64,000 bases of DNA from Kaiparowitsia implicata GSE-PSE-MK54-09C (GTDB taxonomy: Bacteria; Cyanobacteriota; Cyanobacteriia; Elainellales; Elainellaceae), in contig JAHHHI010000081.1 of the NCBI GenBank assembly GCA_019359435.1, positions 1 to 64,000 of the forward strand. Reading direction: 5' to 3'. Positions 12,395 through 15,223 of the stretch are shown one piece after another. Numbering within the stretch: the first letter of the stretch is position 1; each line of letters starts with the position of its first letter. The translations under genes and the position numbers were made by a program. The notes below the pieces were generated by a model. That model searched no databases and was not told where the DNA came from. It saw nothing but the letters and a program-made list of their open reading frames with translations.

Positions 12395-13037
12395 GCGATC
12401 GCAGCTTAGTCACTCCCATGCCTCAGTTCATTACCCAAATCACAGTATCGCGTCCATCTGCTCAGTACCTAGGCAGAGCTTAGTCCGCAAATTCTATACA
12501 TCAAGCCCTAAGCTAGCCGAGCCGGATACATCAACTTCCGTTAAACGCAGCCCCACTCATCCTTATTCACCCGTGCCGTCACTTAAATAACTCATCAGAC
12601 AGCTTTAGACAGCTTGAGTAGCATGACATCTCAGCGCTGTAGCAGTTGAGTTGGTATCTGCGCAGTTTCAACCTGATTGAACACCTTGCCCACTCAATTT
12701 CTCCCATGAGCTGAGAAAATCCAAGATGCTTGCTCTAGAGAATCCTTGGGATCAAGCAAAATCAATGCATCTTTGCGCCCATTTAGTTCCGTTATTAAAT
12801 CTTACCCAATTGTTTCTGTGAGTGGGAACAATCTGGGGGCGATCGCAACACATCACCGCAACTCTCTCTCGGACATACAGTCAGTGCTGACGCCTGCGGC
12901 AGTCCTAAAGCATGGCTAAACTGATGCGATATCTCGATACCGCGGGCAGCCAAACCACCAGCTACTTGACACCGCGGCATTGCTGCATTGCGCCCTGACT
13001 AGTCGGTCGCTACAGGCAATCTTTAGCCGTAAAGTAT
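12395..13037. other. Gene-free region before tRNA-Leu
   Basis: 643 bases with no credible coding frame. A weak imperfect hairpin lies around 12805-12840 (CCCA, TTGTT and complements). Nothing else is recognisable. Confidence 0.5.
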
Positions 13038-13118
13038 GCGGATGAAAGGACTTGAACCTTCACACCTTGCGGTACTAGAACCTAAATCTAGCGCGTCTAC
13101 CAATTCCGCCACATCCGC
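13038..13118 (-). tRNA. tRNA-Leu (anticodon UAG)
   Basis: Read on the minus strand, an 81-nt cloverleaf: acceptor GCGGATG pairs with CATCCGC, and the D-loop is GGAATTGGTAGACG. The anticodon stem CTAGA/TCTAG encloses loop TTTAGGT with anticodon TAG. A class II variable arm and a T-loop GTTCAAGTCC complete it. CCA is not encoded. It reads CUA (and possibly other CUN) leucine codons. Confidence 0.95.
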
Positions 13119-13298
13119 CTATACTCAGACTCCAATCATAGCAGGTCATGCGCCCATAGAGCGATGTTGAACGTAGAGTGGAGTCAGCAAATCCCGACTC
13201 AGATAGCTGCACCACCGTCTGCGACCTCCGCGCTCACTCAGCCAGTGATTAACATCGCAATCCTAGTCGAGCCGCCTCCACCCAAAATCGACAATCTA

Positions 13299-13327
13299 TT
13301 GACAATTATTTTCAATAAATGTACTCT
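13299..13327 (+). promoter_or_regulatory. Strong promoter overlapped by a Fur-box-like palindrome
   Basis: TTGACA at 13299-13304, a 17-base spacer, then TACTCT at 13322-13327. The segment 13300-13314 reads TGACAAT-T-ATTTTCA and matches the 7-1-7 Fur box TGATAAT-n-ATTATCA at 12 of 14 positions. The box covers the -35 and spacer, where Fur binding would block RNA polymerase in iron-replete cells. Confidence 0.6.
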
Positions 13328-13333
13328 TTATTT

Positions 13334-13396
13334 TAGTGTTCTCCTCTCAAAGGATCGGCAAGTGGGGTTGGTCGTCAGACCGATCCCACTTTTTTT
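13334..13396 (+). ncRNA. Candidate iron-responsive small RNA (IsaR1-like)
   Basis: A promoter with a near-perfect Fur box is followed by only about 62 transcribed bases and a strong terminator. The 5' half is unstructured and has CTCCTCTC (13341-13348), complementary to Shine-Dalgarno-type GAGAGGAG, a plausible target-pairing seed. The 3' half is the terminator stem. This matches the architecture of IsaR1, the Fur-controlled ~68-nt RNA that lowers photosynthetic electron-transport and iron-protein synthesis during iron starvation in Synechocystis. I infer the identity from architecture, not from an alignment. The transcription start is estimated from the -10 box. Confidence 0.6.
13360..13396 (+). 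terminator. Intrinsic terminator of the candidate small RNA
   Basis: AAGTGGG-g-TTGGTC-GTCA-GACCGA-t-CCCACTT forms a long stem with small interruptions and is followed by seven T residues. Confidence 0.85.
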
Positions 13397-13675
13397 GTTC
13401 TTAATGTTCAGTTCGGCAAATGCCCCACACACCACCTGCGACGAGAGCAGCGTGATTTTAGTGTGGGGCGCTGCAGGGCTGAAACCCACAATTGAGTTCG
13501 CAGTGTTCTTGGATTTATGAGGCGGCAGTAGTGTGCGGCGTGCGGTATTTCAGAGCATTAAGATAGTTTTGCTCCGGCCCCAGCATGCTGCAACAGGCTT
13601 GCTCAACTCCATTTGTTTGATGGCTAGAGCACTGGCCGTTCACCACTTACACTAAGGAGAGTAGTTCAGCGCAAC

Positions 13676-15223
13676 GTGGCCGCAATGATTGTTGATTCGG
13701 ATTCCGCCTCAGTGTCTTCTACTGCTCCTCGTCTTGATTGGGATGTGATTGTGATCGGGTCGGGTATTGGTGGTTTGGTCACGGCAACCCAACTGGCCGC
13801 AAAGGGCGCAGCCGTTCTGGTGCTTGAGCGCTACATCATCCCCGGTGGCAGTGCTGGTTTTTTTGAGCGGGCTGGCTATCGGTTTGATGTAGGCGCGTCG
13901 ATGATTTTTGGGTTTGGACAGCAGGGCACGACTAACCTATTGACCCGAGCGCTAGATGCCGTGGGGATGCATCTAGAAACGATTCCTGATCCAGTGCAGA
14001 TTCACTATCACCTCCCGAAGGGGTTGGATCTAAAGGTGCATCGCGACTATGAGAATTTCTTGCAAGAGCTGATTCAGCATTTTCCCCATGAAGCAGTGGG
14101 GATTCGTCAGTTTTATGACGAGTGCTGGCGTGTGTTTAATTGCCTCAATGCAATGGAGTTGCTGTCGCTTGAGGAGCCTCGCTATCTAACGCGGGTGTTT
14201 TTCCAGCATCCTCTGGCCTGTTTGGGCCTAGTGAAGTATTTACCTCAAAACGCAGGCGATATTGCCCGACGGTACATTCAAGATCCTGCCCTGCTGCAGT
14301 TCATTGATATGGAGTGCTATTGCTGGTCGGTGGTGCCTGCTGCTAAAACGCCGATGATTAATGCGGGCATGGTGTTTAGCGATCGCCACTACGGCGGCAT
14401 CAACTATCCCAAGGGCGGGGTGGGGCGCATTGCCGAGGCCCTGGTTGCCGGTTTAGAAAAAACTGGCGGCAGAATTGAATACAAGGCGCGGGTGACAGAG
14501 ATTGTGACCGAGGGCGATCGCGCCGTTGGGGTTCGCCTTGCCTCTGGCAAAACCTATACAGCTCGGCGGGTTGTCTCTAACGCCACCCGGTGGGACACGT
14601 TTGATCAGCTGCTGCCCGCAGAGTCGATGCCTCGGGCTGAACAAAAATGGCGATCGCGCTACCAAAAGTCACCCAGTTTCTTTAGCCTGCACCTCGGGGT
14701 CAACGCCGAGGTGCTGCCCACAGGCACCGCCTGTCACCACATTTTATTAGACGATTGGGCTCAGTTAGAAGAGGCCCAAGGCACACTGTTTGTGTCGATT
14801 CCCACTCTACTCGACCCCGATTTGGCTCCGGCAGGGCACCACATTATCCATGCCTTTACGCCAGACTGGCTCGAGGCTTGGCAGACCGTGCCGTCTAAAG
14901 CCTATCAGGCCAAGAAGGAGGCCACGGCGGCTCGGATTGTGGAGCGGTTAAGTGCGGTTTTTCCGGGATTGGCAGACGCGCTAGACTTTCAAGAAACCGG
15001 CACACCTCGCACCCATCGCCGCTTTTTGGGGCGCGCCGATGGCACCTATGGCCCCATTCCCCGTCGCAAACTGCTGGGTTTGTTGGGCATGCCCTTTAAC
15101 CGCACGGCGGTTCCTGGCCTTTATTGCGTGGGCGATAGCACGTTCCCGGGGCAGGGGCTCAACGCAGTGGCCTTTTCAGGTTTTGCGTGCGCGCACCGTA
15201 TCGCGGTGGATTTAGGGTTATAA
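13676..15223 (+). CDS. crtH: Carotene isomerase (prolycopene cis-trans isomerase)
   Basis: FAD-dependent enzyme of the phytoene-desaturase superfamily that turns poly-cis lycopene into all-trans lycopene in the thylakoid or plasma membrane. The dinucleotide-binding motif GSGIGGL is at residues 28-34, followed by ERYIIPGGSAGFFER, and the C-terminal FAD motif reads GLYCVGDSTFPGQGLNAVAFSG. The length of 515 residues is typical of CrtH/CRTISO. The start is the GTG at 13676 or the ATG at 13685, three codons later. It is convergent with the universal stress protein gene; a short mobile repeat lies exactly between the two stop codons. Confidence 0.92.
   Translation: MAAMIVDSDSASVSSTAPRLDWDVIVIGSGIGGLVTATQLAAKGAAVLVLERYIIPGGSAGFFERAGYRFDVGASMIFGFGQQGTTNLLTRALDAVGMHLETIPDPVQIHYHLPKGLDLKVHRDYENFLQELIQHFPHEAVGIRQFYDECWRVFNCLNAMELLSLEEPRYLTRVFFQHPLACLGLVKYLPQNAGDIARRYIQDPALLQFIDMECYCWSVVPAAKTPMINAGMVFSDRHYGGINYPKGGVGRIAEALVAGLEKTGGRIEYKARVTEIVTEGDRAVGVRLASGKTYTARRVVSNATRWDTFDQLLPAESMPRAEQKWRSRYQKSPSFFSLHLGVNAEVLPTGTACHHILLDDWAQLEEAQGTLFVSIPTLLDPDLAPAGHHIIHAFTPDWLEAWQTVPSKAYQAKKEATAARIVERLSAVFPGLADALDFQETGTPRTHRRFLGRADGTYGPIPRRKLLGLLGMPFNRTAVPGLYCVGDSTFPGQGLNAVAFSGFACAHRIAVDLGL

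Follow-up and report, generated by a model that had tools for sequence, protein, structure and literature searches.

A probable isaR1 homologue with a Fur-type promoter and conserved petF and sufB pairing sites in the cyanobacterium Kaiparowitsia implicata

The window, a 64,000-nucleotide stretch of the Kaiparowitsia implicata GSE-PSE-MK54-09C genome, carries upstream of the carotenoid isomerase gene crtH a short locus that is identified with high confidence, on grounds of sequence homology, predicted targets, size and literature, as IsaR1, adding a member to a known small RNA (sRNA) family. Homology with a Synechocystis sRNA gene, conserved pairing sites at the petF and sufB starts and one covariation between seed and target are observed, and the following features were assigned:

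13299..13304 (+): −35 box TTGACA, identical in all 30 aligned relatives
13300..13314 (+): 7-1-7 Fur box TGACAAT-T-ATTTTCA, 12/14 match, overlapping the −35 box
13322..13327 (+): −10 box TACTCT, a weak match, with a TA-rich equivalent in most relatives
13335..13398 (+): probable isaR1 sRNA gene, predicted start, end in the T-run 13390-13396
13336..13348 (+): seed GTGTTCTCCTCTC, invariant in the 28-sequence alignment and near-invariant overall
13336..13343 (+): seed part GUGUUCUC, complementary to the sufB start region GAGAACAC
13342..13350 (+): seed part UCCUCUCAA, complementary to the petF start region TTGAGAGGA
13360..13396 (+): intrinsic terminator, a 14-pair stem (13360-13391) followed by seven T, with compensatory changes
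13676..15223 (+): crtH, carotenoid isomerase (TIGR02730, 939.9 bits), a conserved neighbour outside the sRNA

The coordinates of the TTGACA-17-TACTCT promoter proposed in the sequence-only reading are borne out, with a spacer of 17 nt and TTGACA invariant in relatives; the TACTCT box, however, is too weak for a sigma-70 scan, which returned 0 matches. The overlapping 12/14 Fur box proposed in the same reading was recovered at 13300-13314 (TGACAATTATTTTCA; 12 of 14 positions against the 7-1-7 consensus) and is the sole match with two mismatches or fewer in the 64 kb, where 0.12 are expected by chance; in the 30-row alignment of relatives, the corresponding region consists of TTGACA followed by a TCAATAA-like stretch. 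A tRNA gene (13037-13118, −; Rfam tRNA, 58.9 bits) occupies the opposite strand ∼180 nt upstream of the promoter.

Counted from the predicted start A13335 to the T-run at 13390-13396, the unit measures 62–64 nt, in agreement with the earlier estimate of ∼62 nt before a strong terminator. Its minimum free energy of −27.4 kcal/mol (z = −4.85 against shuffles) derives nearly entirely from the terminator, where five of nine counted pairs are altered on both sides with pairing kept, a level matched by 0 of 500 shuffles; the 5′ part alone folds at −3.4 kcal/mol, no better than shuffles. The proposal of a single-stranded 5′ seed had to be narrowed, as UCCU (nt 8–11) pairs with AGGA in a weak 4-bp hairpin over part of the seed (unpaired probability 0.04–0.10), leaving the seed not fully single-stranded. 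Protein-coding readings of the unit were rejected: the overlapping open reading frames (118 aa and smaller) are not credible because homologues differ there by insertions and deletions that break every frame, and the claim that no protein gene explains the transcript stands.

The petF- and sufB-pairing stretches form two overlapping parts of the invariant seed stretch, which includes CTCCTCTC at 13341-13348; the conserved core in the 30-row alignment is AGTGTTCTCCTCTC-AAAGGATCGGCAGGTGGG, and in 20 more copies of diverse origin the seed is of the GTGTTCTYCTCTC type, mostly alongside a TTGACA-type promoter. One genome (G416; L071:1250-1650, −) holds isaR1 in two copies arranged in tandem ∼212 nt apart; both have a Fur-box-like promoter of their own, and the second has an altered seed, GTGTTCTCCTTTC, which may represent a natural case of seed divergence.

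A blastn search with 13290-13400 found the element in 41 of 60 relatives, and a covariance model built from 28 sequences, the window locus among them (13335-13398, 85.0 bits, E 6.7e-24 for this training-set member), extended it to 169 of the 390 genomes of the class and, within the Synechocystis family at the looser threshold of E ≤ 1, to 44 of 50 genomes; on a draw from the phylum, every match fell within that class. That relatives keep both seed and stem, a point on which the sequence-only reading had staked its proposal, is clear from blastn, the alignments, the covariance model and the terminator covariation. No Rfam 15 model matches the locus, with only weak chance-level scores and no sRNA family reaching its gathering score; PsrR1 (RF02701), a high-light regulated cyanobacterial sRNA that likewise acts on photosynthesis genes, reaches 14.6 bits where the gathering score is 42. 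In genus g60 of family f16, four genomes (G092, G181, G220, G439) are without a convincing isaR1, a possible loss in a family in which nearly all other members have one. For Trichodesmium, it has been suggested that such an sRNA may not exist (PMC12090762).

The identification as IsaR1 draws on clear homologues in Synechocystis PCC 6714, PCC 7338 and Synechocystis salina; all five genomes of the genus (G095, G212, G221, G240, G404) give one strong match each. Genome G404 was taken as PCC 6714, its plasmid sequence being identical to NZ_CP007543.1 over 15 kb, and its sRNA, which reads GTGTTCTCTTCTCAAGGA, sits just upstream of crtH like the window copy; crtH of G212 is likewise named by TIGR02730. 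Beyond the IsaR1 architecture proposed for the locus, there is homology to a Synechocystis sRNA gene beside crtH, whose top-ranked petF site and high-ranked sufB site correspond to published IsaR1 targets. IsaR1 is probably, in our assumption, the RNA also named NC-181. In PCC 6803, IsaR1 is 68 nt long with a start at 3164320 (PMC6202907); it is Fur-repressed and widely conserved (PMC7760821), and its iron induction far exceeded that of any other non-coding transcript in a comparison that included PCC 6714 (PMC5386190). NC-181 (ncl1600) was the top iron-induced non-coding RNA in other work (PMC3516471; PMC3925133). An attempt to place the gene at PCC 6803 position 3164320 through its distance to sll0045 (3142651) found no gene of sucrose-phosphate-synthase size at the corresponding distance in either PCC 6714 or PCC 7338. 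The window copy and Synechocystis IsaR1 are alike in their Fur-type promoter, length of ∼60–70 nt, 5′ seed followed by a terminator, conserved petF and sufB targets and wide cyanobacterial conservation; they differ in loop and terminator sequences and at seed nt 10, which is C in the window copy and T in Synechocystis, and no petC pairing was found in the window lineage.

Published targets of IsaR1 comprise Fed1, PetJ, SufBCDS, SodB, PetABDC1, AcnB, HemA and ChlN (PMC8136909). In relatives, the stretch immediately preceding the start codon contains TTGAGAGGA for petF and GAGAGAACAC or GAGAACAC for sufB, and both pairing sites are present in the genome from which the window derives (petF in L170, sufB in L139). 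In the window's family, a contiguous complement of at least 9 nt was found in 19 of 29 petF regions against 3 of 423 background start regions, and one of at least 8 nt in 12 of 27 sufB regions against 13 of 423. Seeds shuffled without regard to phylogeny matched as well in 0 of 300 cases for petF, 1 of 300 for sufB and 1 of 300 for acnB, as well as 0 of 300 for sodB, a set of only 11 sequences with mixed paralogues; support for acnB and sodB is weaker than for petF and sufB, the acnB of the window's own genome being poor (44th percentile), and the petF and acnB signal overlaps the Shine-Dalgarno sequence in part. The petABDC1 genes are among the published targets, but no pairing was found in petC start regions, where 275 of 300 shuffled seeds match equally well; nor was an obvious seed match found at the psaC and petH starts, both in the window. 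In some genomes (G040, G047) the sRNA was not detected, yet GAGAGGA precedes petF.

When 1,242 PCC 6714 start regions from 1.59 Mb (46% of the chromosome) were ranked by duplex energy with the sRNA of that strain, petF came first and sufB sixth. The third-best predicted target (L270-L349 ranking) has an N-terminus, MNPETKARIDQLVSQNKVMVFMKGTKLMPQ, which by eye resembles monothiol glutaredoxin, a type of protein tied to Fe–S handling. The PCC 6714 petF site, TTGAGAAGAG, carries a G to A change matching the C to T change of the Synechocystis seed, a covariation that supports but does not prove the pairing because it is a single event; in agreement with it, the PCC 6714 petF duplex reaches −20.6 with its own seed and −16.7 with the window seed. 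The window petF duplex does not discriminate (−16.9 with its own seed, −17.4 with the PCC 6714 seed).

A mechanism consistent with these features would have Fur with Fe2+ occupying the −35 box and blocking transcription when iron is sufficient, with departure of Fur upon iron exhaustion allowing production of a ∼62–64 nt RNA ended at its own terminator; expression and Fur control in Kaiparowitsia implicata are predicted on this basis. The near-invariant 5′ stretch GUGUUCUCCUCUC(AA) would then pair around the translation starts of iron-rich proteins, with UCCUCUCAA covering TTGAGAGGA before petF (ferredoxin) and GUGUUCUC covering GAGAACAC before sufB (Fe–S assembly), such that ribosomes may be kept from entering and photosynthesis would need less iron. 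Both the iron response and target repression are extrapolated by analogy from published work on Synechocystis IsaR1. A functional analogy, with no sequence relation, is offered by RyhB of Escherichia coli and PrrF of Pseudomonas, Fur-repressed sRNAs that spare iron by silencing Fe proteins.

The position of the element before crtH invites a different interpretation, namely a leader or attenuator acting in cis, whose terminator hairpin governs read-through into the carotenoid isomerase gene. Gene order lends this some appeal, with crtH following in the same orientation at 44 of 73 loci, its start 67–689 nt past that of the sRNA; however, 29 of the 73 were scored as having no crtH beside them (5 because the exact motif was missing), three genomes (G303, G089, G153) have other neighbours, conservation peaks over the 5′ bases matching petF and sufB, and Northern blotting in Synechocystis showed NC-181 as a discrete iron-induced RNA of ∼70 nt (PMC3516471), making an attenuator very improbable. 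The adjacency is old but not universal, and therefore most likely reflects inherited gene order. A rather unlikely addition to action in trans is that read-through past the terminator lets one Fur-controlled promoter yield both the sRNA and crtH mRNA, which, if true, would couple carotenoid isomerisation to iron supply.

That the locus encodes a Fur-controlled sRNA of a parallel family, not orthologous to IsaR1 but of the same design and with overlapping targets, is considered extremely improbable. Identity with IsaR1 is argued through homologues, and Synechocystis does have a second iron-induced sRNA, NC-1321 (∼80 nt), but possible homologues across distant cyanobacteria were remarked on for NC-181 and not for NC-1321 (PMC3516471); the single strong match per Synechocystis genome and the high ranks of petF and sufB, both published IsaR1 targets, also argue against two families. 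Taken as a whole, the evidence is best explained by the locus being the isaR1 gene of Kaiparowitsia implicata, predicted to be Fur-controlled and a putative repressor at the petF and sufB starts, a reading regarded as very probable.

The locus is a further, well-supported instance of a regulator that is key to photosynthesis under iron starvation, in a family already described, and provides a covariance model that reaches clearly across the class for an element that Rfam 15 leaves without a matching family. The two overlapping pairing stretches, together with the paired change in seed and target, offer a possible reason for the 13 nearly invariant bases of the seed.
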